From NCBI GenBank assembly GCA_020152595.1, contig JAIGNY010000732.1:1-64000 (forward strand): a stretch of 64,000 nucleotides of DNA, given 5' to 3'. Under the pieces are notes generated by a model. That model did no database searches, was not told the DNA's origin, and was given only the letters and a program-made list of their open reading frames with translations. A program made the position numbers and the translations under genes. Source of the DNA: Chiridota heheva. Lineage: Eukaryota; Echinodermata; Holothuroidea; Apodida; Chiridotidae. This document shows, piece by piece, positions 4,833-63,290 of the stretch; position 1 is the first letter of the stretch, and each line of letters starts with the position of its first letter.

Positions 4833-4837
4833 CAGAA

Positions 4838-6182
4838 AGGGACAGGGATGTCACTGACCAAAAGGGACAGGAATGTCACTGACCAAAAGGGACAAGGATG
4901 TCACTGACCAAAGGGGCAGGGATGTCGCTCACCAAAAGGGACAAGGATGTCACTCACCAAAAGGGGCAGGGATGTGACTCACCAAAAGCGACAGGGATGT
5001 CACTCACCAAAAGGGATTGATAGGGATGTTACTGACCAAAAGGGGCAGGGATGTCACTCACCAAAAGGGACAGAGATGTCACTCACCAAAAGGAGCAGGG
5101 ATGTGACTCACCAAAAGGGACAAGGATGTCACTGACCAAAAGGGGCAGGGATGTCACTCACCAAAACGGACAGGAATGTCACATTAAAGGGGACAAGGAT
5201 GTCACCAAAAGGACAGGGATGTCACAAGGATGTCACTGACCAAAGGGGCAGGGATGGACAGAGATGTCACTCACCAAAAGGAGCAGGGATGTAACTCACC
5301 AAAAGGGACAAGGATGTCACTGACCAAAAGCGACATGAATGTCACTCACCAAAAGGGACAGGGATGTCACTCACCAAAATGGACAGGGATGTCACTCACC
5401 AAAAGGGACAGGGATGTCACTGACCAAAAGGGACAGGAATGTCACTGACCAAAAGGGACAATGATGTCACTGACCAAAGGGGCAGGGATGTTGCTCACCA
5501 AAAGGGACAGGGATGTGACTCACCAAAAGGGGCAGGGGTGTGACTCACCAAAAGGGACAGAGATGTCACTCACCAAAAGGAGCAGGGATGTGACTCACCA
5601 AAAGGGACAGGAATGTCACTGACCAAAAGCGACATGAATGTCACTCACCAAAAGGGACAGGGATGTCACTCACCAAAAGGGACAGGGATGTCACTCACTA
5701 AAAGGGACAGGGATGTTACTGATCGAAAGGGGCAAGGATGCTGCTCACCAAAAGGGACAGGGATGTCACTCACCAAAAGGGACAGGGATGTGACTCACCA
5801 AAAGGGGCAGGGATGTCACTCACCAAAAGGGACAGGGATTTCACTCACCAAAAGGGACAGGGATGTTACTGATCGAAAGGGGCAGGGATGTCACTCACCA
5901 AAAGGGACATGGATGTCACTCACCAAAAAAGGAAGGATTGTCACTCACTTAAAGAGACAGGGATGTCACTCACCAAAAGGGGCAGAGATACCACTTACCA
6001 AAAGGGACAGGGATGTCACTCACCAAAAAAGGAAGGATTGTCACTCACTTAAAGGGACATGGATGTCACTCACCAAAAGGGGCAGGGATACCACTTACCA
6101 AAAGGGACAGGGATGTCACTCACCAAAAGGGGAAGGGATGTCACTCACCAAAAGGGGCAGGGATGTCAGTCATCAAAAGGGA
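4838..6182 (+). repeat. ~25-bp minisatellite
   Basis: More than 50 tandem copies of a unit whose core is GGGACAGGGATGTCACTCAC followed by CAAAA. Variants include GGGGCAGGG for GGGACAGGG, CACTGACC for CACTCACC and GATGTGACTC. The short basic reading frames (MSLTKRDRDVTHQKG-type repeats) come from this periodicity; they are open in several overlapping frames and carry no independent coding evidence. One isolated unit occurs at 16574-16605. Confidence 0.95.
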
Positions 6183-7440
6183 CCATGCCGAAATTTTCTC
6201 CTTTACAGCTTGTTGTACAAAAAAAATCAATTATAGCGTACTGGCACCCGAGTTTCGGTCTAGACTTGTTGTTAACGTTTATAACAAAGGATCGCTGTGC
6301 ACTGCGCGTAGGCTATTAAGTTCAATGTACCATGCACACTCGCGTTGCGAATCACACAGTCGACTGATTAGTTGTGACTGCGAGTTTCATGTAGAAAACT
6401 TTCTCTTCTGTTTAGAAAAAAAATGTTCGAATAAAACGAGAAATTAAGATCACTAAAGTAATCGTGTTGTGTTTTCTTTTTAAATATCTTCCCAAACTTT
6501 GTATGTTAAACTAATTCGTCTAGTAATTCAGTTTTAGATTAAACTTGAATATATATGTTTCCAAATTGGATAGCTTAGGCCTATCTGATCTTGTCGATGT
6601 ATTTTTAAAGAATTTAAACTTCGCATAATTACTTTGTAGAATTCGTAGTTATGTTCTCCATGTTATCTTCATTTAATTCCGAAATGGCTTTTTTGCAGGT
6701 GTGGAAGGAAATTTCTATAATCAAATGTTACCGTAATACATTAATACCTCTTGAAATCACATGTCAATCACGCTATTTTTTCCTTCCCTTTATCCCTTCC
6801 TAAACCAAGCACATTATTTACATCGTAAAAATACCAGCAAATAAAGTTTGCGCTTACAACTTGAAAACACAGTGAGCCCGTGCACTTTGTCAGTTAACAA
6901 CTGAACGTTCCAAGCAACCAAAAATAGGTCCCACGCTTCCTGTCGGGATCGTTATTTAATCCAGTGGTAGCAACTAAATGTTATCTAACAATGATTTGTG
7001 GTTTTTCCTCTCACCCAATTTTTGATTTTGGCCATCCCACTCCCCACACACTTTCGGCAGACAAATCCCGCCCATGCTATTTCTGACGATGTTAAAGCAT
7101 TGTATTTTTTTTTTTTTTGCACGATGAATATTACTCCCGGCATGTTTAATACAGTCACCCATCTCAAATAACTTCCGGATAATTATTATATATTATACAG
7201 GGTCGTGATACTGGGGAGCAGGACGTGGGAGATGTTCCCCTACTTTTCAGCAGAGGCGGAGCCAGGATAAAATGTCAAGGGGAAGCGGGGGGCAAGCCAA
7301 AGCAAAAGAGATGATGTGATAACATGTTTTATGAGCAGTTTTGTCATATTTATTAGAACATATTGGGACAAGGGTGCGGAGGAGGAGGCAGCGTGGTAAT
7401 TGCACGTCTTATGAGCGGGGAGCAGAGAGAAAGATACTCC
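6183..7440. other. Unannotated, low-copy sequence
   Basis: No supported exon. A T/A homopolymer lies near 7107-7120. At 7250-7300 a segment GGCGGAGCCAGGATAAAATG followed by GGGGG-rich sequence resembles the ends of hAT-type non-autonomous elements, but no matching right end was found. Confidence 0.4.
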
Positions 7441-14579: not shown

Positions 14580-15870
14580 TACATGCAGGCAAAAAGTAAA
14601 GTTTCGTAGTGCTGGTGCGTTACTTCCCATATCAGATAATTCACATGTATTACTGAAATGGTCAATACTGTCAGCAACAAAATTTTAAAACGATTTACTC
14701 CCGCCATGCATATATTATGAAGTAAAACTTGTCGATAATGATAACACGGACACATCTGTCCAACATGATTTTTTGAACTAGTTAAGAAAGTGAATCAAAA
14801 AATCAAAGTTTAAATCTTAATTTTCAATTCTCCTATTTCTGATTACTAACATAAACATGGAACATTATCTTATCATTCTCTGAAGATATCAGGCACAGCC
14901 TGCGAATATAATGATTGCTACTACGATGAAGATGACGAAACTATGATGATGCGTGTGCACTTTAACAACATTATACTTCTACATGTGCATTGTAAGCCAT
15001 CTGGCCAAGAGCCACTTGTTCAGGTGTTCAAATGCAAGGCTTTTTTTTTATTGCAACATAACCTTTGGCTTACATGCAGATTTATTGCTTTTTGGGAACT
15101 TTGAGCATTAGTATATGTAATGGAGTTTACTCTGTCTCAGTCTGAAGTGCAAACACAAATATTTAAATGCATAGAATCATTTTTCAAATGATTGTTTAAG
15201 TTTGATCTTAACAGGGATGGTTTATTTTATGTCATATTTTTGATATTTACTGTTTGTGTAAAACTTTATCTGCTTATTTAAAAAAAATATATAATTTGTA
15301 TGACATTTTGTTTCACAGAGTATATAATTTGTATTGATTTATTCAAAACTTCATTGATTATTTATAACGGTTATAATGTGGAGATTTGGCGTTGTATAAC
15401 AATACTTAAGTTCAATGCATTCAAACGTTCTTTATGTGATCATTGATCATTTTTGTGATATTTCAATTGTATGAAATCTGTATTTATTTACCAACAACTT
15501 CTGTTAATGATCTATAACGGTTATCAGTAGGGAATTGTTATAATAAAACTTAAATTTACTGCTTTCCAGTAGTTCTTTACTTGGTTAGTAACCTCCTGCT
15601 TTGACTTATTGCCTTGTGAAATTGTTTGACTCAATAGATTCAAATATAGACATGATGGGCCACATTTAAATTTCTATGCCTATGTAAATGCGTAAAGGTG
15701 ATATACCACCTAACATTGACGAGGACCATTTTGATATCTTACTACAATAGTTGAAGACTCGTCAAAAGTGGAATACGTTCTTTGTATAACCACAAATTTT
15801 CCGTAATGCGATTTTTGAACGCTTTTACCATTTTGTTCAAATCTAAATTGAAAATTCACGTCCATAACAT
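14580..15870. other. Unannotated; diverged ~145-bp duplication at 15330-15600
   Basis: Mostly AT-rich. At 15330-15600 two diverged copies of a block containing TTATAACGGTTAT / CTATAACGGTTATCAG, AACTTAAxTTxA and GTTCTTTA follow each other. No coding signal. Confidence 0.4.
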
Positions 15871-16035
15871 ACAATTCTGGACAAAACTATTGGACCCTTT
15901 TCTTCACCCTTTCTACCCCATTTCAATGTTGGAAGAAAATTTTGAAAGTCAAAAAGTCAGTGCAGGTCCAAGTCATGTCCCAATATGGAAATGTGGTAGA
16001 AGGGGGAAATGGTCAACACTTTTGTCCAGAATTGT
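15871..16035. mobile_element. Small fold-back element (165 bp)
   Basis: Begins ACAATTCTGGACAAAACTAT and ends ACACTTTTGTCCAGAATTGT, near-perfect inverted termini that extend inward (TGGACCC...CTACCCCATTTC against GAAATGTGGTAGAAG). No gene inside. A non-autonomous DNA element is the simplest reading. Confidence 0.65.
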
Positions 16036-16167
16036 CTGAGAAATGAAGATAATGTGTGTGATTTGTACATATCCATGAGAGCAGATGAAAAACAAAATAT
16101 AAGAACATGACATGGAAAACCCCAAACAGTTAAGGATTTCATGAAAACAAAATCTTATCTTTGCTTC

Positions 16168-16194
16168 TGAAAAAAAAAAAAAAAAAAAAAAAAA
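16168..16194 (+). repeat. Poly(A) run
   Basis: A run of about 25 A residues, without a recognisable retroposon body upstream. Confidence 0.9.
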
Positions 16195-16573
16195 TTACAA
16201 TGAAGTAACAGAAAAGCACCATGTTGAACCTATCTGTAATCCACTGAATATCTATAAAGGTTTATACATCCTTCATGTGTGCATTAAAAACAGAATACAA
16301 GTTATACCATGTGTAGTTCCTTGTTAAAACTTGCAAGTTATTAATAATGAAGACTATATACAAAGCTATACTGTGTTGTGTATGGTGGTAACATAGAGCT
16401 TTTAACTGAAAATGTACTCATGCAAAAAGCAATGAATGACCGCCTGGTGATTGGATTGCATGTGTGTCCTTGCTCAGGTCAGAGAAAGGTGATTTGTGAT
16501 TGTTGTATAAAATTGGCTGTCTAGATGCCCTTGGTAATTCTGATTGTCTCCACTAAGGGAAAACAATTATACA

Positions 16574-16605
16574 TGACAGGGATGTCACTGACCAAAAGGG
16601 GCATT
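16574..16605 (+). repeat. Isolated unit of the ~25-bp minisatellite
   Basis: GACAGGGATGTCACTGACC followed by AAAAGGGGCA matches the array at 4838-6182 but stands alone in otherwise unrelated sequence. Confidence 0.8.
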
Positions 16606-16792
16606 TACAAGGCATCAAGGGCACATTGAGGGCCGGTTTGAATGCATACTTTGAAATGTAAATAAGGGAATAATCAATGCACTAAGTAGTGTCCCTGCAA
16701 ATTGCCAGGGGAACTATCATCAGCATGGAAAAAAAGGCAAAATAGTTATCAAAAGTGTGTTCTTGTGAACAAAATGTAGAGTTCTTAATGGA

Positions 16793-16888
16793 AAGGGGCA
16801 GGGTGGGGGGAATAAGGGGTAGGGTGGGGCAATAAGGGGCAGGGTGGGGAAATAAGGGGCAGGGTGGGGGAAATAAGAGGCAGGGTGG
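16793..16888 (+). repeat. G-rich ~20-bp tandem repeat (five units)
   Basis: Units AATAAGGGGCAGGGTGGGG repeat with small changes. Four G-runs occur in each pair of units, so the plus strand has G-quadruplex potential. Confidence 0.85.
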
Positions 16889-17691
16889 AGCACCCCTCTG
16901 AAAACGTTAAACTAGGGACTTTGAATCAATTGGTGTAGTTAAATTTAACCATAGACATTCCTTATTCCTATAATTGTTTGTTGCCTCTTTACCCCTTTTT
17001 GTAGGACTGTCTAAAATTTCTTCATAATTTTCATCTGTGTGTAACCACCCCCTTATATTGTTAAATATCTGAATTACAGTAAATTATATATAATACAACA
17101 TTAAATACATGCAGTCTCTTTTCAGATAGATGGAGCAAAAAAGTTTCCATCAAATGGGGTCATTTACATTACAATGGAATATCATCAAATTAGATCATCT
17201 AAAAAACATTCTTTGATCAGCATAATAGTTGAAATAAATGAAAATCTAAATTAAACACTTCTAGTGAGTTTTTAGCACAATTAAGCACATTGAAATTTAT
17301 CCACATGACATAGCTAATACTACATTTTCTTCCATTTCTAGAATGGTACACACAATGATGTTTTTTTTATTCTAAAGAAAATATTTTTTTTACAAAAAGA
17401 CGTATACTTAATTAATTGTAAATAGTTTTTACAACCCATTTATTTGCTTTCTTTCTCAATATGAGCTTCTTAAATGTGATTTTTGCACAAACTTCAAAGG
17501 AAGTGTACACTATTTTTCAAACAAACACATTTACATAAATCAAGCAATCATTAAAAAACTTTTGTTGCAGTTATTACTTATGTTTATTCGATAACATACA
17601 CCACTCCAAAATCCTATTTAATCTTTTACAGGGACCTTATCAAATTATATACTTCACCTTAGATATTCTCCCTTTCCATAATTACATTTTG
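16889..17691. other. Unannotated AT-rich sequence
   Basis: No exon, repeat or RNA gene recognised. Confidence 0.4.
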
Positions 17692-18276
17692 TTAAAGGAT
17701 TAGTTCAGTAGTCACGCATATCCATCTTATATGAAAGAGAATTTCAAAAGAAACAAAATGGTGAAGAAAGCATTACAAAATCTTATTCCGTGAAGGAGAT
17801 ATTCAGGTTTAAAGCTCTGTCTTATCTGTGTAGAAATGACTGGTGTTGTAAGTCTACCATGAAAAGTTGGTGTCTTCATCCTCACATTCTTAACAATTGT
17901 TAATGTATTTTAAAGAAAGTTTTTTTCTCTCACGTTTTTTACTATTTAAATTATTTTTCCTTGAACTTTCTTCAGTGGTATATTATAGATACCCTTCCTA
18001 TATTAAGTTTAACTACTTTTTTATCCCATGGTATTTAAGCTACAAAATTGCAGGACAAAATATGATAGAATACGTAAAGACTTTGAAGAATCTGAACTAG
18101 AGGAATCACAAATAGTCTGATTTCAGTCGCTTCTACACATGATGTTACCAAACTTAAAACCTAGATATCTATTTTTACGGAATAAGATTTTTGACTGCTA
18201 TCTTCACCATTTTCTTACTTTTGAAGTCCTCTTTCATTTTAGATAGATTTGCTTGACTCTTGAACTAATCCTTTAA
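17692..18276. mobile_element. TTAA-flanked MITE, family 2, complete copy A (585 bp)
   Basis: Left end TTAAAGGATTAGTTCAGTAG, right end GAACTAATCCTTTAA. The arms continue with ATCTTATATGAAAGAG and AACAAAATGGTGAAGAAAG on the left and their reverse complements on the right. The two arms can be told apart by GTAGAAATGACTGG (left) and GTCTGATTTCAGTCGCTTC (right). No transposase. Other copies: 37676-37954, 38013-38195, 40240-40751 and 57755-58652. Confidence 0.85.
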
Positions 18277-19337
18277 GGATTTCTTTTTGGTAAGGGAAAA
18301 ATCCAGTCTGACCGTATTTACTCTAAGATCTGGCTAAATCCGGTTCCAGCCCGATCTAAAAATTTGGATCCGGTGCATTCTTAAAATGAGTGACAAATGG
18401 CATGCGGTCCAGGTCAAACCACTTTATGGGTCCAGGGGGCAAATGGGTCCAGGGTGAAAGCCCCTGGAAGCTCTGATGATTCATTGTAATTTACATTAAT
18501 GAAACACTCACTAGCTCTGTTTTAAATACCTCCTTATTTCCAGCAGAGCAAGTCTTTAAATTTTCCACATGACCTTTTGTTGAGTTAATAATGTCATTCT
18601 AAGAATCATCACAAACTGTGAGATCATTTACAATAATAAAGTATATAGTGTGATGTACCCAGCATGTCCAGTTTGGCAGATGTAAGACAATACCAATAAT
18701 GTACCCACTCCCGTACATACGCCCTGTAGGTACACTATGGATATCGCCCTATATCTCTAAAACTGGACATACTGGGAACATCACATTATAGACATTATTA
18801 ATGCAGATGATCTTACGATTCATTTGGTATCCTTTTTAAAAAGATCGGTAAATGTGTCGGTTTTGACCTCTCTATAGTAACCAATCAAAAGTGTAATGAC
18901 CTTTAGGATATTTCCGACCATAGCAAGATATTCGAAGGTAAAGGATATGACCAACTATACCTTTTTGAATTCCTTATGACCAGCGGAGTAATTTAATACA
19001 TTTATTTATAGGAATAGGCCATTTTAAAATTTTGACCCCATACTAACATTTGACCTTGAATTGCTCCTGACCTAGACTTCAAAAACCAGGCACCCCTCTC
19101 TATAATTTTGCTATAGGACATAAACATAAAATGTACAAAGTTTGGTGCTTTAGTCCAATGTGTATAGATATGAGCCAAAACCATTCTGACATTGGAGCAT
19201 TTTAAGCCTAAATACTGTTACAATTACCAGAACAATTTATTCTGTTAAACCAAAGTCATCTTTTATTGATCAGTTATTCGGTACATTCTCTTAAATCTAC
19301 TATTTACAAATTTAGAATAATTTACCGAGTGACTTAC
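18277..19337. other. Unannotated
   Basis: AT-rich sequence. Near 18650-18790 a segment repeats as an imperfect inversion (ATGTACCCAGCATGTCCAG against CTGGACATACTGGGAACATC), perhaps another small fold-back element. No exon. Confidence 0.4.
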
Positions 19338-19410
19338 CTTACATACATAACTGAAAACTGCCCACTTTGCTGTGTAATTCCATGCCCTGTTGAACACAGA
19401 TTTGATCATA
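19338..19410 (-). CDS. Candidate exon (unrecognised)
   Basis: Minus strand: acceptor ...TTTCCTGGTATGACAG and donor GTAAGT enclose 73 bases. The open frame reads MIKSVFNRAWNYTAKWAVFS then YVCK. An alternative acceptor CAACAG at about 19391 keeps the same frame. Its entry phase fits the exit phase of the candidate at 20534-20467 in one frame. This rests on splice consensus and plausible composition only; chance is possible. Confidence 0.3.
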
Positions 19411-19748
19411 CTGTCATACCAGGAAAGTAACAATATTATACAGCACTACATTCATATGATAACTACAAAGTAGCCTACTTGCATGTTGATCTCTTTCAAA
19501 GAATTAGTTAAATGGTGATTCAGCTGTTTTGGCATTTGACTATTGTGACATAGTCACGTGGTTGTAGTTCTTTACGTAAATTGATCTTTTGACATTAGAT
19601 CATAATGGAATTTCGGTGACATTTTGATTATTTGATATATATTTTTGGTCATAAATATCCTTTTTTAGAAATCAAGGTTATGACCTTCACAAGTCATAAA
19701 TATTTCTATGTATCTTTGATACTTTTATGTAACTATTGTTGTGTGTGT

Positions 19749-20012
19749 GTATGGAGACCAGTGATACACACTGACTGATAAGTATGGAGACCAGTGATGC
19801 ACTCTGACTGATAAGTATGGAGTCCAGTGATGCACACTGACTGATAAGTATGGAGACCAGTGATACACACTGACTGATAAGTATGGAGACCAGTGATGCA
19901 CACTGACTGATAAGTATGGAGACCAGTGATGCACACTGACTGATAAGTATGGAGACCAGTGATGCACACTGACTGATAAGTATGGAGACCAGTGATACTC
20001 ACTGACTGATAA
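19749..20012 (-). repeat. 33-bp minisatellite (eight units)
   Basis: The unit core GTATGGAGACCAGTGATGCA followed by CACTGACTGATAA repeats eight times with a few substitutions. At 33 bp it preserves frame, so two minus-strand frames show 11-residue repeats (HHWSPYLSVSV and ITGLHTYQSVC). No coding support beyond periodicity. A short GT run precedes it. Confidence 0.95.
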
Positions 20013-20466
20013 GCACTAACTGTCATGGATGTATATTAATGAGCGTGATCTCCTCCTAGACCCCCTCCCATGAAAAACTGTTCAAATTTAGTCCACTTCT
20101 ATTGACAAAATGTCAACGAAAAAGGGTTTTTTATATTTATTCTTTTATCGGAATGCTAGGATTTACAAAATATTTGTATGTACAATGAGACTAGAAAATA
20201 CAATGGATATTCAACTGTCAAAGTACCCCCCTCCACCCCTCTACCCCCACCAAAAGAAGAAGAAAAAGTACAAACATATGACGGAAACTCTTCTCTCAAT
20301 TCCCATTGTTATTCATCTTGCCCAAACTTTGTGCCGCTTTTATTTTCGTCCCAGTATCCTTCGACGAAAGTCACGGCACATGTTCATATGAACTATGCAA
20401 CAACTTTTATCCATATTAGTCCATTATAATGTGAAGTTCATATGGGTTTGTTGATTGATTACTTAC

Positions 20467-20534
20467 ATTTGGACCGGCCTTGAGCTCTTGGGGGTGTAAA
20501 GTTTGTTTGTATGGTAGGTGACGGACTTGGCAAG
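20467..20534 (-). CDS. Candidate exon (unrecognised)
   Basis: Minus strand: acceptor CTGCTGGCAG and donor GTAAGT enclose 68 bases. One frame reads LAKSVTYHTNKLYTPKSSRP then VQ and leaves two bases; a second frame is also open and extends further upstream, so the coding frame is undecided. In the first frame the phase joins correctly to 19410-19338. The acceptor has a poor pyrimidine tract. Low confidence. Confidence 0.25.
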
Positions 20535-20889
20535 CTGCCAGCAGTGATTCACAGGGATTAAAACATGAACCTGAACTGAGTACATGTGCGTAGTTTATGC
20601 AAAGAGCTTCATGTATAGGTGATTTTATGATAATATGTACGTTGAATTGCATTAAATTCCTATATAGTTCAATTGTTTTGATCAGAATTTATTATGCGTA
20701 ATGTATGTTATGTTATGTGTGTAAATCAGCGGATGACATAAATAGAGCGAGATTAAAAGGAGATCTGTTTAAACACTTAATTAATTAACCGAATTGAACT
20801 TTTGAGTGCCGGCGGAAGAGTGAATCTTAGAGCCAAGTCCTGGGCGGGAATTGTGAGTTCTGGGCGGGCCCGACCAGCGCCGCCCACCG

Positions 20890-21640
20890 TAGCTAGAACC
20901 CTGTTAATGAATAGGCGGAGTTTAAGGTAAAAACTTGAAATGTTCATGTTTCAACAACTGCATCATGAAGCAATATTTTTCCTTGTGAGAAATGGTCCGT
21001 CAATCATTTACAGTTAATGGACACATCACCTCAGGCAGTTATTTTTATCACCAGTTTGCAAACAAATTTCTCCCACTAATACGCTTAACGCTGATGAGTG
21101 ATTTCAATGACAAAAGTGCCCTGATTACTCAACACTGGCTTTCTGTAATCTTATTAACACACAAATAACCTTAGGCTATTTGACTGTGGTGTGCATGGGA
21201 ATGGTAGATAAACAATCATTGTTTGGAGTGGAAACACAATACACTGAACAGGAAGTCGGGTTGGTAATTGTCATACCTGAGTTTTCAGGATTAACTCGGG
21301 TGTCGGGTGCTGGTAGGCTTAAAGAGAAACTTTTCGGCATGTGCCATTTGTTTCATATTTGGTTTGATTATGTTGTTAGCTAGTGTGTAAATGTTCATGG
21401 TATAATAATGTCGGATTTCATTAACATGCATATAAAGTGCAGGGCTTATATGTGTTGAAAAGAGTTTGTAAATATGATATCTCAAGAACGATACATTTGA
21501 TTCAAGTCATATATGTGGTACACAGAATCACAGATAACCCATTGTTTTTAGATATGCCTTATTGTCTTTGGTGGTGATGTCATGCATATTAATGAGTGGG
21601 TGGGGCTTGAGGTAAAATCTTGAAATGTTCATATTTTAAA
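20890..21640 (+). repeat. ~280-bp dispersed repeat, array 2, interrupted
   Basis: Blocks GAATAGGCGGAGTTTAAGG, AAATGTTCATGTTTCAACAA and, after an interruption, CATTTGTTTCATATTTGG, GATATCTCAAGAACGATACA and CATGCATATTAATGAGTGGG match the array at 641-2080. The reading is broken by an unrelated ~370-bp insert at 20967-21340. Confidence 0.8.
20967..21340 (+). mobile_element. Element X (about 370 bp) inserted in the 280-bp repeat
   Basis: The repeat breaks after CAACAACTGCAT and resumes at CATGTGCCATTTG, with GCAT at both junctions (a possible 4-bp duplication). The insert begins CATGAAGCAATATTTTTCC and ends AAAGAGAAACTTTTCGG. The same sequence occurs in reverse at 45046-45745, so X is a dispersed repeat. 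I see no terminal inverted repeat or reading frame; class unknown (solo LTR or SINE possible). Confidence 0.6.
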
Positions 21641-24035
21641 AGAGACATAAAGTCTGACATAATCATTATTTCATATGATAGAAATAAAAATAACAAAACT
21701 TCTGACCAAATTGCATACCTCCCAAAGCAATCTAAACACATTTTTGGGAATGATCAAAAAGTTTAATGCTATGAATAAATTGTTCTACGGGAGCCATTAT
21801 TTTGATTTCAAATCATGCAGATTATGATTTCATCAGCCCAGCAGGATGTTGGAGTGCTTTGTATTTGTTTATTATCTACCTCAAATTTCCTAGCTTATGA
21901 AATATGGTTTTTCTTTTGTAATGGTCAAGGATATTTTTGTGTACATGAAATTATCAAAACATGCTGTTAAAATTTTGTATCACATCATTTTGGAATAAGT
22001 TTTAATGCATAGTATGACTTAATATATGGGACCCTCCTAAAGTAGCAGAGGTGATTCCGTGCATGCCAGTTACAGGGCATTTCCCGGCAGTGGTAGGGGG
22101 CCAAGGGAAAAACAGCCCCCCCCCCCAGCAAAGCTTTCTAAAGGGGCACCAAAATCGTCCTGAGAAAGAAAAATTGGACCCTGGGAAAAATTTACGTGTT
22201 GATCAATAAATTCTTCAAATACTATTAAGCAAGTAATATTCCATTTGTGTAGTCCAAAAGTGCATGAATTTTCCACAGAAAAAACCAAATTTTCCACCAT
22301 TTTCCCACCATTGGCGCTCGAGCGGGCCAGGCCCTTGGATTTCGTGCTCGGACAGAAACTGATGCATGGCAATAGCTCGTTGGCAATATTCAATATCCAC
22401 TCCTGCCGTGAAGGCCAAAACATTGTATTTAATACATCTGGTAGAAGCTGTTCGAGAGGTCGCCGAATGATCACAGGGATGCAAAAATTGTTATGAAAAT
22501 ATACTTTGATATCCTTTTTATTCTCAATGTTGTAAATATTTTTTCTCAAAGCTTTATTCTTGCATTGAGCATGGAAACCATTCCTAGACCCCAACTAAAG
22601 ACACATATTGAAGTCAATGGGATCCTGTATTTGAACATTTGTTCCAAATAGTATTTTTTTTAACTTACTTTAGTTCGGAATTGACAAGATTTCATGACTT
22701 GTCCTTCTCCCTAAAAATTTGTTCCAGCAAATCATAACTACAAACTTACTGTAGCAAATAGTGAGACCACTTTATCTTGATTAAAATAACCACACAATAA
22801 GGACTTTATCCATTGCTAATATGATACTCAGCACCAACTTCCACAACAACTAAGGTTTTCAGAATAAAGAAAATGAAGAGGAAAAATATGACCCGACCTG
22901 ATTATCAATCAGGTTGGGTCTGACTGTTTGAAAGTTTAAGGAGCGGAACAACTAATGTTAAGCAATTTTTTGCTACCAAAATTACGGCAAAAAACGCTTC
23001 TAGCTTCCTGGACCTTTGCCCCCTTGGCGCCTAGGACGTCGACCCAGGATTTGACACAATATTAAGCAATTGAAAAAAAAAAACTAATTAATTTAAATTT
23101 GGAAGGGTATTTTCGCCACAAATTTCAGATATGTTTATGATCAAATGTAAAAAGTGTGATTTAACTTAACTTTGGTAATACAACAAATGACTGGACTTTG
23201 ACATATTTTCACTGATTTTGCACACAAGGAGGAAAGTTTTAGAATATTTTTTGCAGGGAACTGATTGATTGTTAAAAAATTTATCTTACAATTTGTTAGT
23301 TTCATGACCAGGGATGTGAGAGTTTTTGAATAAGAATAAAAGATCAACAAATTTTGAGGTTTTTCCTTTGCAACTTAACACTAATGATGGTTACCGTTTC
23401 AAGTGTGGCCTATAACCCCGAGTGTATTTCCTGAAAAATAAAGTCCCCATTCGGAATTTTCGGGGATAGAAGTTTCTGTTCCAAAGGCATTGCTTTCTCA
23501 GCATCCTTATGTCTTTCAATTTGTGTATACTTATTTTTATAGCTTAGGCCATTAATACATAATAAAACGTCCTTTATCCTAACGTCAGTAACAGCAGACG
23601 GATGTGTGTGTACAAGTAAAAAGGAAAAATTGCTGTTTTTATTGGCTTAACTGGACCAGTAAATTTTGAAAGGAAAATATCTTTTAGGATGTAAGTTATA
23701 TTGCATTTTAAGTAATAAATATTGGTCTCTCTTACCCCAGGAAGCGTCATTTTCACGATTTTGAATTAAGTTTTAGGTCGAAATTGGTTGCTAAACAAGG
23801 TGGAATCAAACATATTACAGGCTCTTTGGCCTGGCTTCGTCCAAAGAAATTATATTCTCCTGTCGTGATTGCAAATTTAATATTAAAAGGAAAGGGTCAT
23901 CAGCAATTTTCAGGCCGATTGAATTTGAATCAATTTTAGTCGCGGTAGGGAGGGGAATTGCGCTTTCAGCTATACCCAAAAGAGGTGAAAGGAATTCAGG
24001 CCAATGAGTGTAGACAATCTATTACGGACACTTAC
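21641..24035. other. Unannotated; ambiguous 525-bp minus-strand frame
   Basis: A 174-codon minus-strand frame spans 22594-22070 and an 89-codon frame overlaps it out of register (22484-22215, containing EYCQRAIAMHQFLSEHEIQG). I recognise neither, and no splice sites support them. They could be a decayed gene fragment or chance. The rest is AT-rich without signal. Confidence 0.3.
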
Positions 24036-24060
24036 TCTCTTTGATATTTTTAATGAGGAT
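24036..24060 (-). CDS. Candidate 25-nt microexon
   Basis: Minus strand: a strong acceptor (pyrimidine tract TTTTTTCTGTTTCAG) and a strong donor (GTAAGTG) enclose only 25 bases. One frame (SSLKISKR) would leave in phase 0, compatible with 20534-20467. Nothing but splice consensus supports it. Confidence 0.25.
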
Positions 24061-27000
24061 CTGAAACAGAAAAAATGAGCCGTATGTCCATTTAAAGTTT
24101 TATAAATACCTGCAATTCGTAAGTTGTAATTCTGTTCTGGTTTAATTATGTCCTCTGCTCACCGTGCATGCAGGGGTATAACTAGACTTCGATCGCAGGG
24201 GGTGTAAGACAAATTTGTTTGACAAAAAATAAATCAGGACAATTTATAATAGTTTTTTTTTGTCTCTATATAAGTATAAGGCTACAATTTGAATACAAAA
24301 AACAAAAAACGATCTACATATCAAAGCCTTCCGTATACCTAGACGGGCAATGAAACCAAAAACACCTAAACCACGGGACAACCCCAACCCTTCTCCCCAC
24401 GGGGATAATGGAGGCAAGAATTGGGCCCTCCATTTCACGAGAGCAACGGGTCAAGAAGTACCCTTTGTGATATTTATATTAGGCGTGATTTTCGCCCCTG
24501 CTATAAAGTAAGAGTTGTGATGCTCAAAACTCTTTTTATGCTTTGAAATGGCTGTTTTCGATATAAAAACTGTCAATTCTCATCATTTGTGCTTTTTCAC
24601 TTTTAGATGCATGCATACCCAAAGTTTTATGACCAATGTTGCCCTCTTTTTGACTCGCTTCTTGCCTATTTCGCGTGCAGACGTACCAGAATGAAACCCA
24701 TGATTGGGAACAACATTGAATTATATGGGAAACTCCTTTATTGTGCATCTTTAATTAGTTTTCAGTACACCTCATAATCATTTTCACTACAATTTTAATT
24801 GATAATGTATGGCAGTAGGCCTAAACTTGAGGTAAATTTTATTGGCTTCAGTCAAATTTTTGACGCTTCCGGTTGCCAAACAGTTCATAAAAGTATCATC
24901 TCCATTCATTATTTTGATTGCCACCTCCAGTTGCTTAAGATACATTTGGCAAAACAAAAACAAAAAACATGAATGTATACTTGTCATTTATTTTATTAAT
25001 TAGATGTCTTGAATATTTCCTATATGCCATGATTACTAATACTATCTTCAATCAGTAAAGTCAATGGAAGTGTGCGCTTGTTTTAGACGCACGATTTGTT
25101 TTCTACGCCCGCGTTCAACATTTACGCTTGCATGGCTGATGTTCGATAGAATTTGAAATAATTAGGTACATTCACTTCGGCGCACACGATTGTGAAAAGG
25201 TAGCAACAGAGGTAGGTGAAAGTTTCTTTTTTTTTCGGGTTTGAGTTCATAGTTATTAAATGTATATTTTGTGCCCAAGCTTTTAAGATTAAGAGTTACA
25301 TACTAGAAGCTTTTTCAGTTCTGTAGCTTAACTTTTGCAGGTTGAAATAAATGAGGTAAAAAAGTACAAATTTCTTGGAAAATGTTCGCAAAACAAGCAG
25401 TGCGTTGCAAATATTCTGCGACGCGACTATGATGAGTCAATGTAGCGGTTTTCACCGTTATATGCATAGGATGATGTCTGACCCAGTATTCGCAGTAATT
25501 TATTTTATTTTGTTAAAGATTTTCCTTTTTTTATTTTTAAACTTATCTTAATTAACCTCATAAATGAATACCTTACATGGATACAGAACACAGAATGATA
25601 GCATAGTAAGCAATTGTCCTGTTTGGGGCTAGTGAGATTAATATCTCACTCAGTATGCCCTACATGCTACACACTAACTTGCAATACTGAGTGAGACAAC
25701 TCAACAGAAACTTAGATTGGGATTTTCATTTTGACCTATCATACGTCCAACGCTTTTACAAATTATGATCATGGCAAAACCGTTGAAATAGTACTGACGA
25801 GCTACCAATTAGATGACAATTATATTGTAAACTTACTAAATACATTTTTATCTTCTTATATCAGTATATACAACAAAAAGGAATAAAATTGAATGATTTT
25901 CGGAGCTAATCGTTTACCTTGACAACTTTGTCCGTCTGACTCGCGACGGGCGTACAAGAGTAACGCACAGCTCAGGCCAGATTACGCTGGTGAGTGTTAG
26001 TTTTCAGAAATTCGCACTTACAATCTTCCTCGAGAGACAACAAGTCACCAGCACGAGAAAAAATGTATATCACATATTACAATGAAGGAGCATGTTTTAA
26101 ATGCAATAAAATATCATTTAAGCGAAATGAGGTATATGTGGCAAAACGGTAAAGAAGTATTTGGGAAAAGAATTTAGGCCTATACAGCTAAAAGAAAGTC
26201 TAGCTTAGTCAATAATTGTTCTTCAGGCACTTATTGCATATTTGTTTTAATGAATTCCATGTCCATGTTGTGATGCTTAATACATAAGTGTAGGAACGGG
26301 GAGGGCAGGGGAACGGTGCCCTACACACAAATGAATAAAGTGCCCCTATTGAAAATGAAAAGTTCACCAGTCCTCAATTACTGTCAAAGGTGCGAGAATT
26401 TGTGGCGGAATTTGCGGATACTTTTAAACAAATATTAAAAAGTGCCTTTTCAAAATGAATACTGCTTGGGCTCAGAAATTATATCTACTGGGAGGGGGAA
26501 GGGGAGGGGAGGAGGATTTTCATTTATAAAAAAAATGAAATTAAGACGATAAATGTTTTGTCAATTAAATTGTAGACCCGTAACAAAATATTTTGTTAAA
26601 ACAAAATTCATATATTTTGGCTTAGTAGTTGCCAAACTCCTTACCCCAGACCTATTCACCCTCATGACGCATACTAACATGAAAAGTGGGCGGAATTTTC
26701 CTATCGAAAGTGGGGAATAATCAAAAGTTTAGGGGGACAAAATCACGCTAAAATGCAAAAAATAATCTTACAAAAGGTACAAATTCAGGAACAGTGTGTG
26801 TGGGTGAAATGGAGGGAGAAGGAGGGGGAAGGGGGGGGGGGGTGGCCATCCTTTCAATTTTCCTCTCAAATCCAGCCTGTATACATGAACAACGGTGACT
26901 GATATGGTTACTATTCTCGTTTACATTCATGTGGTATATCTTACGTATCATTGTCAGATTTCGTTCATACTTTTAACATCCAAGCTTTGTTATTATTGGT

Positions 27001-39919: not shown

Positions 39920-40177
39920 TCATCTGTCCTTGACCACCTCTTGAGGATTCCCATTATCTTTGTCATCATCTTCAAGATTCAACTCCTCTAGGTCTGCATC
40001 GTTTGTTTCATTGTTCCGCCTCTTGAAAAACCGTCCCCCTACAAAGCCAATTGCACATCCCCCAAAAGCTGCTGCAGCACCCATTTTGTAGCCCACTAAG
40101 AGACCTATGGGCCCACCTACAACTGTACCGAGTAGCGCACCACTGACAGGCAATGCAACAGCCCTCAGCTTGGATGC
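39920..40177 (-). CDS. stx17: Syntaxin-17, last coding exon: membrane hairpin and C-tail
   Basis: Syntaxin-17 is the Qa-SNARE that drives fusion of closed autophagosomes with lysosomes. Minus strand: acceptor TGATTCTCTACAG ends at 40178, a phase-0 exon of 85 codons follows, TGA at 39922-39920. The protein starts ASKLRAVALPVSGALLG, followed by two glycine-rich hydrophobic segments (TVVGGPIGLLVGY and AAAAFGGCAIGFVGG) separated by KMG. This is the STX17-specific double-membrane hairpin with GG-zipper glycines, aligning without gaps to the human sequence as I recall it (LAALPVAGALIGGMVGGPIG). A basic FFKRRN stop-transfer is followed by an acidic tail (DADLEELNLEDDDKDN). The phase fits the preceding exon. 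Confidence 0.95.
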   Translation of the reverse strand, partial: ASKLRAVALPVSGALLGTVVGGPIGLLVGYKMGAAAAFGGCAIGFVGGRFFKRRNNETNDADLEELNLEDDDKDNGNPQEVVKDR

Positions 40178-52067: not shown

Positions 52068-52154
52068 CTGAATGAGAAACCTTGTCCCTGATCGTACATT
52101 TGTTTCCACCATGTCGACATTCTCCTCAATTCTATCTACCACTTCTTTTTGTTC
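52068..52154 (-). CDS. stx17: Syntaxin-17, SNARE-motif exon
   Basis: Minus strand: acceptor TCTTTTTTTCTACAG ends at 52155, 29 codons in phase 0, donor CAG|GTGAGTG after 52068. It reads EQKEVVDRIEENVDMVETNV then RSGTRFLIQ, the C-terminal half of the Qa-SNARE helix. Aligned to human STX17 as I recall it (SQQEKIDSIADHVNSAAVNV...), there are no gaps and the second residue, Q, is the zero-layer glutamine that pairs with the partner SNAREs. The hydrophobic heptad positions V, I, V, V, V are kept. The exon joins 55285 upstream and 40177 downstream in phase 0. The intron downstream starts with a possible mini-element a few bases past the donor. Confidence 0.93.
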
Positions 52155-54210: not shown

Positions 54211-54347
54211 CTACTCCTTGCAGAAGATACCAGTTTAAATGGGCAAGATATCAAGAACTCCAAGCTGGACAGAGGGGTATGGAATGCCATCACAAAATTC
54301 CAACCTTCATAGTGGCCATAAGCAGCAACCATGTAAGCAGCATGTTA

Positions 54348-55284
54348 CATCACTTACCCCTATGTACTACACCACTTACCCCTATGTGCTACACCACTTA
54401 CCCCTATGTACTACACCACTTACCCCTATGTGCTACACCACTTACCCCTCTGTGCTACACCACTTACCCCTATGTGCTACACCACTTACCCCTATGTGCT
54501 ACACCACTTACCCCTATGTACTACACCACTTACCCCTATGTGCTACACCACTTACCCCTATGTGCTACACCACTTACCCCTATGTGCTACACGACTTACC
54601 CATATGTACTACACCACTTACCCCTATGTGCTAAACCACTTACCCCTATGTACTACACCACTTACCCCTATGCGCTACACCACTTACCCCTATGTGCCAC
54701 ACCACTTACCCCTATGTGCTACACCACTAACCCCTATGTGCTACACCACTTACCCCTATGTGCTACACCACTTACCCCTGTGCTACACCACTTACCCCTA
54801 TGTGCTACACCACTTACCCCTATGTGCTACACCACTTACCCCTACCTATGTGCTACACCACTTGTCCCTACCTATGTGCTACACCACTTACCCCTACCTA
54901 TGTGCTACACCACTTACCCCTACCTATGTGCTACACCACTTACCCCTACCTATGTGCTACACCACTTACCCCTACCTATGTGCCACACCACTTACCCCTA
55001 TGTGCTACACCACTTACCCCTATGTGCTACACCACTTACCCCTATGTGCTACACCACTTACCCCTATGTGCTACACCACTTACCCCTACCCATGTGCTAC
55101 ACCACTTACCCCCCATGTGCTACACCACTTACCCCTATGTGATACACCACTTACCCCTGTGTGCTACACCACTTACCCCTGTGTGCTACACCACTTATCT
55201 TTACATGCTACACCACTTACCATTATGTGCTACACCACTTACCCCTATGTGCTACACCACTTACCCCTATGATACATAACTTAC
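54348..55284 (-). repeat. 22-bp minisatellite made of splice-donor-bearing units, abutting an stx17 exon
   Basis: About 40 units of (minus strand) CACATAGGGGTAAGTGGTGT + AG. Most contain GGGGTAAGTG, identical at positions +1 to +6 to the strongest 5' splice-site consensus. The array is continuous with the true donor of exon 55442-55285, which reads AAATAGGGGTAAGTTATG: 12 bases (ATAGGGGTAAGT) are shared between the authentic site and the unit. Some units near 54840-54980 have a 4-bp insertion (CCTA on the plus strand); a few have lost the donor core. The long plus-strand Thr/Pro/Tyr-rich frames (CATPLTPMCYTTYPYVLHHL) are periodicity artefacts, open in all three frames because 22 is not a multiple of 3. 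Confidence 0.93.
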
Positions 55285-55442
55285 CCCTATTTGTTGAGAG
55301 AAATCTTGAATGAGAGAATGCACATCTTGTAAGTCATCTTTGAGCTTTACCCAAGACTGCTCAGCCTGTTTGGTCTCACTCAACCTCTTTATTAACTCAT
55401 CTCGCTCAACTTGCTCTTGCATGGTCAAGGATGATGGAGGCC
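55285..55442 (-). CDS. stx17: Syntaxin-17, exon before the SNARE zero layer
   Basis: Minus strand: acceptor TTTATGTTTTCAG, 158 bases, donor ATAGGG|GTAAGT after 55285. It enters in phase 1 and leaves in phase 0. The protein reads GPPSSLTMQEQVERDELIKR, LSETKQAEQSWVKLKDDLQD, VHSLIQDFSQQIG. The AEQSWVKLKDDL...LIQDFS section matches human STX17 as I recall it (AAESWETLEADLIELSQLVTDFS), the N-terminal half of the SNARE helix after a low-complexity linker. A 22-bp array begins directly after the donor and a 31-bp array ends about 50 bp before the acceptor, so the exon is isolated between two minisatellites. Confidence 0.93.
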
Positions 55443-55494
55443 CTGAAAACATAAAGTTGCTTAGTTTTAATCATCATATACTTAATCAAAATAC

Positions 55495-56185
55495 TTATAA
55501 TATGTGGTGGTACACTTAATCATAATAGTTATAATTCATCATACACTTAATCATCATAGTTATAATCATAATAGTTATAATCATCATACATTTCATCATC
55601 ATAGTTATAATTCACCATACACTTAATCATCAGTTATAACTCATCATACACTTAATCATCAGTTATAACTCATCATACACTTAATCATCATAGTTATATT
55701 TCATCATACACTTAATCATCATAGTTATAATCATCATACACTTAATCATCATAGTTATAATTCATCATACACTTAATCATCATAGTTATAATTCATCATA
55801 CACTTAATCATCATAGTTATAATTCATCATACACTTAATCATCATAGTTATAATTCTTCATACACTTATTCATCATAGCTATAATTCATCATACACTTAA
55901 TCATCCTAGTTATAAATCATACACTTAATCATCATACACTTAATCATCATAGTTATTATTCATCATACACTTAATCATCATATAGTTATAATCATCATAC
56001 ACCTAATCATCATAGTTATTATTCATCATACACTTAATCATCATAGTTTTAATCATCATACACTTAATCATCATAGTTATAATCATCATACACCTAATCA
56101 TCATAGTTATAATTCATTATGTACTTAATCATCATTATAATTCATCATACATTTAATCATCTGTTATAATTCATCATTTATAGTA
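55495..56185 (+). repeat. 31-bp AT-rich minisatellite upstream of the stx17 exon
   Basis: About 20 units with core TTCATCATACACTTAATCAT + CATAGTTATAA, with frequent deletions. On the minus strand it precedes the acceptor at 55443; the last ~50 intron bases (ATATGATGATTAAAACTAAG…) resemble the units, so the array may have grown from the branch-point region. Confidence 0.9.
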
Positions 56186-56543
56186 AAATAAGTGATACAG
56201 TGGTACATATTCCAGGTTACTCAGTTTTCAGGCAAGACCGTCAGATTAGATAATCAATGGTAGAAGAGGTGGTGTTATATTGCTTTGCAAAAGACAGTTT
56301 TATTTGTATAGATAGGACTGCTCAGTTTTGTTTTGTTTGATCCTTCTAAAGCATGGGATGTTTTCCAAACTATAGTTTTGGAGGGATAAATAGGTTTGTC
56401 CAATTAATGAAAGTCTGTTATCGTAATCGGCCAGTGTGGATGTCTTGGGAGGATTTGCAGGCTGTTTAGAGAAAGAAGAAGTTGTGACATTGTTATAAAC
56501 ACAGTGAATGTCCTGCGGAGTTTGCTAGGTATGAGGATCATCA
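56186..56543. other. stx17 intron, unannotated
   Basis: No clear feature; could include the 5' part of the LINE that follows. Confidence 0.4.
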
Positions 56544-62148: not shown

Positions 62149-62388
62149 CTGTATCGAACAGATGAGCTGAATTCCTATGTCTTAAGTTCATGTTTTCTGT
62201 GTCCCCATTGGGAACAGGACTGGTGCCATCCAATGCTATACAACTCAGTCCACACGCCTCAATGAACTGCACAATGGCATGCACCGCCTCCTCCTTACAG
62301 GCTCAATCCTAGAGTCCAAGGATTCCAAATCTTCTTCTCGAATCTGACATCTTGCTTTGTCCATCTCACGGATATTTGCTTTTAGTTG
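62149..62388 (-). CDS. stx17: Syntaxin-17, N-terminal-domain exon with an apparent 1-bp deletion
   Basis: Minus strand: acceptor GTATCTATTTCAG ends at 62389; donor ACAG|GTATAT follows 62149. The first 31 codons read QLKANIREMDKARCQIREED then LESLDSRIEPV, matching human STX17 as I recall it (QLRSNIREIEKLCLKVRKDD...MIDPV). The expected next residues (KEEA) are present but one base out of frame: KEEAVHAIVQFIEACG starts at 62296. Restoring one base near 62296 gives 241 nt, so the exon would leave in phase 1 as the next exon needs; as written it is 240 nt and does not fit. A lost A in the GTAA(A)GG run, real or from assembly, is the simplest explanation. Upstream exons are outside the window. Confidence 0.88.
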
Positions 62389-62447: not shown

Positions 62448-63290
62448 GGCCATTTCCCATCAAAAACATCCTACAAATGTCAGCAATTTCCCATCAATGA
62501 CCCATCCTGTGATGTCAGCCACTTCCCATCAATAACCCATCCTGTGATGTCAGCCATTTCCCATCAATAACCCATCCTGTAACATTAAGAATTTTTGGCC
62601 CTTAGACCCCTCCACCCCCAATTTTCTCAAAATCAGGGCACCCCCTAAGAACTTTTCTCATTGAAAATCCAGCTATTGTAATCCACACCATTCAACTTCT
62701 AAGAGACATAGCCTATTCACAGTTCACTTGTTAGCAACCATTGATTAGTCATTCATCCAGCTAACAGCTGTTCAGTGATGCGAATCAGATAAGTCCTTAG
62801 CAGAGCCTAAATATAAATTATATGCTTGGGAGGACTTTGTGCAAAACCTATAAATGTTTGATGGACCACTCCTTGTCAGGATGATTATTTCATCATGATG
62901 TCAGCCATTTCCCTACAATGACCCATCCTGTAATGTCAGCCATTTACCATCAATAATCCATCCTGCAATTTCACATCAATAACCATTATGTAATGTCAGC
63001 TATTTCCGATCAGAAACCCCATCCTGTAATGTCAGCTATTTCCCATCAATATCCCATCCTGTGATGTCAGCCACTTCCCATCAATAACCCATCCTGTGAT
63101 GTCAGCCACTTCCCATCAATAACCAATCCTGTGATGTCAGCCATTTTCCATCAATAACTTATCCTGTAATGTAAGCCTTTTCCTATCAATAAAACAACCT
63201 GTAATGTCAGCTATTTGTCATAAAAAAATCCATTGTCATCTATTTCCCATCAGAAACCCATGCTGTATTGTCAGCCATTTCCCATCAAAG
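62448..63290 (+). repeat. Degenerate 35-bp minisatellite (two blocks)
   Basis: Units of CCCATCCTGTGATGTCAGCC + ATTTCCCATCAATAA occupy 62448-62590 and 62895-63290, with unrelated sequence between. It starts about 60 bp upstream (in gene sense) of the stx17 exon acceptor. Confidence 0.88.

Follow-up and report, generated by a model that had tools for sequence, protein, structure and literature searches.

The stx17 (syntaxin-17) gene of Chiridota heheva contains an exon that ends inside a minisatellite, a tandem repeat across the exon-intron boundary whose unit holds the last six exonic bases and the splice donor. We regard this array as a neutral, junction-spanning minisatellite that splicing tolerates, and as a by-product of a minisatellite-rich genome rather than a switch, a reading to which we assign a probability of about 0.8. 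Positions given without a prefix refer to the window, meaning the whole stretch of 64,000 nucleotides that was analysed, and the features are collected in Table 1.

Table 1. Positions of the stx17 features in the window and of the two further donor-spanning arrays elsewhere in the genome (a slash marks the exon-intron boundary)
Feature	Position	Strand	Basis
Minisatellite, 42 units, 39 with GTAAGT, overlapping the last six exonic bases	54346..55290	-	TRF and unit split
stx17 exon, 158 nt, PPSSLTMQEQ...SLIQDFSQQIG, phase-0 end at ATAGGG	55285..55442	-	sequence, alignment, frame
True splice donor GTAAGT of the stx17 exon	55279..55284	-	sequence, frame
Next stx17 exon (EQKEVVDRIEENVDMVETNVRSGTRFLIQ), acceptor CTACAG, donor CAG/GTGAGT	52068..52154	-	sequence, alignment
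Last stx17 coding exon (ASKLRAVALPVSGALLGTVVGGPIGLL...) to the stop	39920..40177	-	sequence, alignment
Second minisatellite, different unit (~31 bp), ending 28 nt before stx17 exon 55442-55285	55471..56177	-	TRF, sequence
zwilch exon with donor-spanning minisatellite	G000:C33:86500-92400	+	sequence, alignment
GTPBP6 exon with 36-bp minisatellite	G000:C211:33077-30460	-	alignment, frame

The original prediction described about 40 tandem 5′ splice sites directly behind an stx17 exon, with an array that begins at the true donor and includes the junction itself. This description is borne out by the structure of the array. TRF assigns it a period of 22, 41.8 copies and 91% matches, and splitting the minus strand unit by unit with a script gives the unit counts listed in Table 1. 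The exon ends in ...CAACAAATAGGG with GTAAGT directly after it, and this first GTAAGT of the array is the true donor; 41 units follow, 38 of them with GTAAGT intact. The usual unit is ATAGGGGTAAGTGGTGTAGCAC (22 bp), while a 26-bp subtype carries an inserted GGTA and forms a block. The exact 12-mer ATAGGGGTAAGT occurs 26 times, and therefore the repeat takes in the last six exonic bases (ATAGGG). The first unit is diverged, with 20 bp and the sequence ...TATGTATC. Edge units of minisatellites are often diverged. For the amphioxus repeats known as mirages, divergence of the edge units is likewise reported (PMC3087553 / PMC3902484). Rfam gave no match at gathering score in the 64-kb window, and the three pairs of inverted repeats of at least 14 nt in 54250-56250 all lie within the upstream array at 55471-56177.

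The assignment of the exon to stx17 was also correct. In a search with exon 55442-55285 fused to two further coding exons, the next one and the last, syntaxin-17 chains rank first (7bv6_B, 1.6e-07; 4wy4_B, 3.6e-06), and the joined peptide aligns with human syntaxin-17 over the junction without a gap; in Pfam the SNARE model stays below its cut-off (E 0.00023, 21.5 bits against 26.8). The gapless alignment and the reading frame both mark the first GT as the true donor. Of the 39 GTAAGT donors joined to the exon at 52154, only the one at 55284 leaves the frame open, and all 38 others lead to a stop, in agreement with the expectation that every later donor would do so. Read-through of the first donor yields VSYVS and then a stop, and later donors would lengthen the exon from 158 nt to between 178 and more than 1,000 nt and add a stop.

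The strength of these donors was computed against the U1 of the organism itself. The genome has 17 matches to U1 genes, the 5′ end is ATACTTACCTG in all four that were inspected, and the GTAAGT of 39 of the 42 units pairs with it. The computed U1 duplex is -10.3 kcal/mol for the true donor, -11.4 kcal/mol for 35 of the 42 units and -14.0 kcal/mol for CAG/GTAAGTAT. GTAAGT at +1 to +6 is optimal for pairing, as the original prediction states, and the GGG at -3 to -1 is not. The array copies are therefore good, not optimal, donors, most of them slightly stronger than the true donor, and some competition is to be expected because of this small advantage.

The intron behind 55285, which had been called long, measures 3,130 nt and is not specially long. 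The exon together with its 28 upstream bases has a single match in the 1.1-Gb genome, and for this reason we found no other haplotype or paralogue with a different array length. From its 28-nt distance, the minisatellite upstream of this exon (55471-56177) likely reaches the putative branch-point region of the acceptor. An stx17 exon further upstream also has a minisatellite (62449-62580), which stops about 60 nt in front of it, and TRF lists no array at the ends of exon 52154-52068. These neighbours belong to one gene, chosen for having an array near an exon edge, and so are no gauge of an excess over chance. Separately, the stx17 exon at 62290-62310 (minus strand) contains a probable one-base indel, either an assembly error or a real frameshift, as IEPV continues into KEEAVHAIVQFIEA only in another frame.

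Whether an array of this kind is unusual depends on the genome around it. Our sample comprised 20 of 80 10-kb stretches drawn at random from 20 contigs (200,000 bases sampled), in which arrays were counted at a period of 9-120 and at least three copies, with overlapping rows removed. It contains 50 arrays covering 28,848 bases (14.4%), with a median period of 22 and a median of 15.5 copies, and 20 of the 50 have at least 20 copies. The size of the stx17 array is ordinary for the Chiridota heheva genome, and the impression that it stood out finds no support in this comparison. At the sampled density, any one donor has a chance of about 0.3% of lying no more than 6 nt from an array edge; assuming about 10^5 donors, hundreds of meetings between arrays and donors are expected without a special mechanism, before selection. 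Donor-like motifs within the unit are also not in clear excess. GTRAGT is present in 1 of 50 sampled arrays (shuffle mean 1.74) and in 3 of 22 arrays of the window (shuffle mean 0.79, P = 0.04), the window having been chosen for one of them; pooled, the figure is 4 of 72 (shuffle mean 2.58, P = 0.26). One array of the window, with 54 copies at 4836-6183 on the minus strand, has a donor-like GTGAGT in its consensus unit (TTG/GTGAGTGA), and no coding exon was recognised by eye at its edge.

A genome-wide search for tandem donors gave a similar picture. Three GGTAAGT in a row (gaps of 6-34 nt) have 3,334 matches against 18,003 for the backward motif, and three AGGTAAGT have 699 against 4,530. Tandem donor motifs are thus not enriched genome-wide over the reversed control, which is imperfect: matches overlap, which gives large arrays most of the weight, and TGAATGG, the motif reversed, may pick up other repeats that are common. 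In sequence free of arrays, GGTAAGT and its reverse occur at the same rate (24 times each in 171,153 bases). Special seeding of arrays at donors was considered and set aside, as the data do not require it and tandem motifs are rarer than the reversed control. Among the matches listed, the first 100 of each search in contig order and not a random set, we examined 13 arrays from the GGTAAGT search and 15 further ones from the AGGTAAGT search, two more of the latter being already among the 13. About 1 kb was fetched at the 5′ side of each of the 28 arrays, and the edge is visible in 25, being missed in L039, L046 and L056. At least two of the 28, among the matches listed, start at verified coding exons, those of zwilch and GTPBP6. 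The remaining arrays were judged from short open frames and by eye, independently of annotation, which makes two a lower bound; L040 and L055 were left out of the count, and L050 was dropped as a donor case, as frames read by eye put the array behind a stop codon. From the density outside arrays, about 132,000 GGTAAGT are expected in the array-free part of the genome. If 15,000-25,000 of these are assumed to be true donors, random array birth would place 11-19% of GGTAAGT arrays at donors. The observed 2 of 28 (2 of 25 with a visible edge), a lower bound that leaves stx17 outside the sample, is not above this expectation. Four of the 15 further arrays (L049, L057, L059 and L062) are copies of a dispersed minisatellite with a unit like AGGGAAAACAATTGGGTAGGTAGGTAAGT; their flanks are similar on visual inspection, and a mobile element may have carried them.

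Donor-spanning arrays consequently recur in this genome at genes unrelated to stx17. The zwilch array, built of some 12 copies of a 24-bp unit, begins at the donor; TTTACCAATG is common to the array and the exon end, and eight units have GTAAGT. The zwilch exon alone is a weak match (Pfam E 0.0067, below the cut-off; PDB 0.094). Once the next exon is added, the match to human zwilch reaches 3.3e-13 and stays in register over the junction, with a one-residue gap beside it, and the first donor therefore fits, as in stx17. The GTPBP6 exon matches human GTP-binding protein 6 at 1.3e-09, with the HflX model sub-threshold, and its 36-bp unit consists of about 34 coding bases (EVCNKVDLLSEG) and the donor. 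The next exon found has its acceptor before C211:30460, and splicing to it from the first-unit donor (-7.7) runs into a stop. Within 1,600 nt, eight GT sites preserve an open GTPBP6 frame into that acceptor, and only the second-unit donor among them is strong (-12.2, the other seven being -2.4 or weaker). Use of this donor (C211:32889) gives 12 extra residues relative to the human chain, which is the length of one unit. Frame and alignment thus predict the second-unit donor, with a small exon in between also possible, and the GTPBP6 exon seems to have absorbed one repeat unit.

If the stx17 array served as a set of donors, one would expect fewer changes in its donor core than elsewhere in the unit. 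We compared 38 of the 42 units, omitting the first, the last and two of differing length and removing the GGTA insert from 26-bp units. The donor core varies in 9 of 342 cells against 16 of 494 elsewhere (P = 0.68), and GTAAGT alone in 4 of 228 against 21 of 608 (P = 0.26). Extra conservation of the core is therefore not detectable among these 38 units, the test being weak in so homogeneous an array.

The stx17 array belongs to a known kind of repeat, represented by the amphioxus mirages, the human ABCA7 VNTR and the IFI6 minisatellite. Literature searches on minisatellites, splice donors and mirages brought up no mention of stx17, zwilch or GTPBP6, which is not to claim that their arrays are absent from print. 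Mirages are tandem repeats that straddle exon-intron boundaries, carry splice signals in many of their units and are unstable in length; they are described in Adh3, troponin C and the globins BflGb6 and BflGb9, with similar repeats in PGBD5, and reportedly leave regular splicing undisturbed (PMC3087553, PMC3902484). The stx17 array resembles mirages in spanning the boundary, in having splice signals in many units (39 of 42) and in recurring at unrelated genes, and differs in that those 39 units carry near-identical strong donors. Human ABCA7 has a VNTR in intron 18 with a 25-bp unit and 23.7 reference copies, which begins at the donor GT of exon 18; splicing from the donor of the following unit makes the transcript 25 bp longer and shifts its frame, an extension independent of VNTR length, whereas longer VNTRs increase skipping of the next exon and lower expression (PMC5954066). 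By that account the two arrays are alike in beginning at the exon's donor, although the ABCA7 repeat starts at the GT itself and the stx17 repeat takes in six coding bases. Length-dependent exon skipping and expression are features of ABCA7, while stx17 is known here from the sequence of one assembly. The minisatellite of human IFI6 (6-16; Turri et al. 1995) is reported to supply several splice donors. Two downstream repeat units are reported to be used, giving isoforms (PMC4526556). On that description the stx17 array is similar in offering several splice donors, and is different from IFI6, with its productive isoforms, in the stop that follows all 38 later GTAAGT donors joined to 52154.

Our preferred explanation for stx17 is that about 22 bp, comprising the last six exonic and the first ~16 intronic bases, were duplicated by slippage or unequal exchange, and that the copies then multiplied along the intron, just as other minisatellites have grown in this genome. 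The spliceosome would mostly take the first, exon-defining donor, which exon definition across the 158-nt exon would favour. The later donors would be tolerated decoys, whose use adds a premature stop, so that the resulting mRNA would be degraded as nonsense. The array probably costs the gene a minor output of such transcripts. The array donors need not be silent, as the GTPBP6 frame points to an array donor and IFI6 is reported to use repeat units; together with ABCA7, these cases make it plausible that array donors can be used.

A regulatory role, whether by titration of U1, by tuning through copy number or by suppression of polyadenylation as suggested in the original prediction, is possible and finds no support here. 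In its most direct form the array donors would compete, and copy number or the level of U1 or splicing factors would set the share of nonsense transcripts and so tune stx17 output. We consider this unlikely. It could draw on the 38 intact and unproductive GTAAGT behind the true donor, most of them computed to be slightly stronger, on the predicted use of unit 2 in GTPBP6 and on the one-unit extension in ABCA7 (PMC5954066) and the repeat donors of IFI6 (PMC4526556). However, tandem donor motifs show no excess over the reversed control and the donor core is without detectable constraint (by a weak test), and in the ABCA7 account it is downstream exon skipping and expression, not the one-unit extension, that depend on length (PMC5954066). 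The array might instead act as an intronic enhancer or guard. G-runs are known to act on splicing, and GGGGTAAGT, in which a G-run adjoins a U1 site, is present 37 times in the array; U1 or factors that bind G-runs could be drawn to such sites and either reinforce the first donor or prevent polyadenylation within the intron, which contains four AATAAA and one ATTAAA downstream. This we hold to be quite improbable, as the intron is just 3,130 nt, the other placed stx17 donor (exon 52154-52068) does without such an array, and the donor core again lacks detectable constraint.

The remaining alternatives concern origin. At least one donor-like minisatellite of this genome is dispersed, with a unit shared by four of the 15 further arrays, and a dispersed or transposon-carried family could have landed at the stx17 exon by chance; the repeat nevertheless holds the coding end of that very exon (ATAGGG and the donor), and a single genomic place corresponds to the exon plus the 28 bases upstream of it, which makes such a landing very improbable. 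Least credible is an assembly artefact, a collapsed or over-expanded repeat. The probable indel near 62300 hints at assembly errors, but the units differ from one another and include the 26-bp block, as in real arrays, although the copy number may be inexact.

With the neutral junction-spanning minisatellite as the preferred reading, stx17 presents one exon followed by 38 near-identical donors and an unambiguous read-out, as only the first is productive, and so provides a natural test of how one 5′ splice site is chosen among near-equals. Together, stx17, zwilch and GTPBP6 provide a test of how minisatellites shift exon ends. Tentatively, and with more doubt than confidence, donors may be caught in arrays repeatedly in this genome, with exons creeping in unit by unit; GTPBP6 would then have absorbed a 36-bp unit as 12 new residues and, judging by frame, switched to the donor of its second unit, and zwilch and stx17 would represent earlier stages that still rely on the first donor. 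If this is true, the genome of Chiridota heheva would be a natural series for studying competition among near-equal 5′ splice sites and the movement of exon ends.
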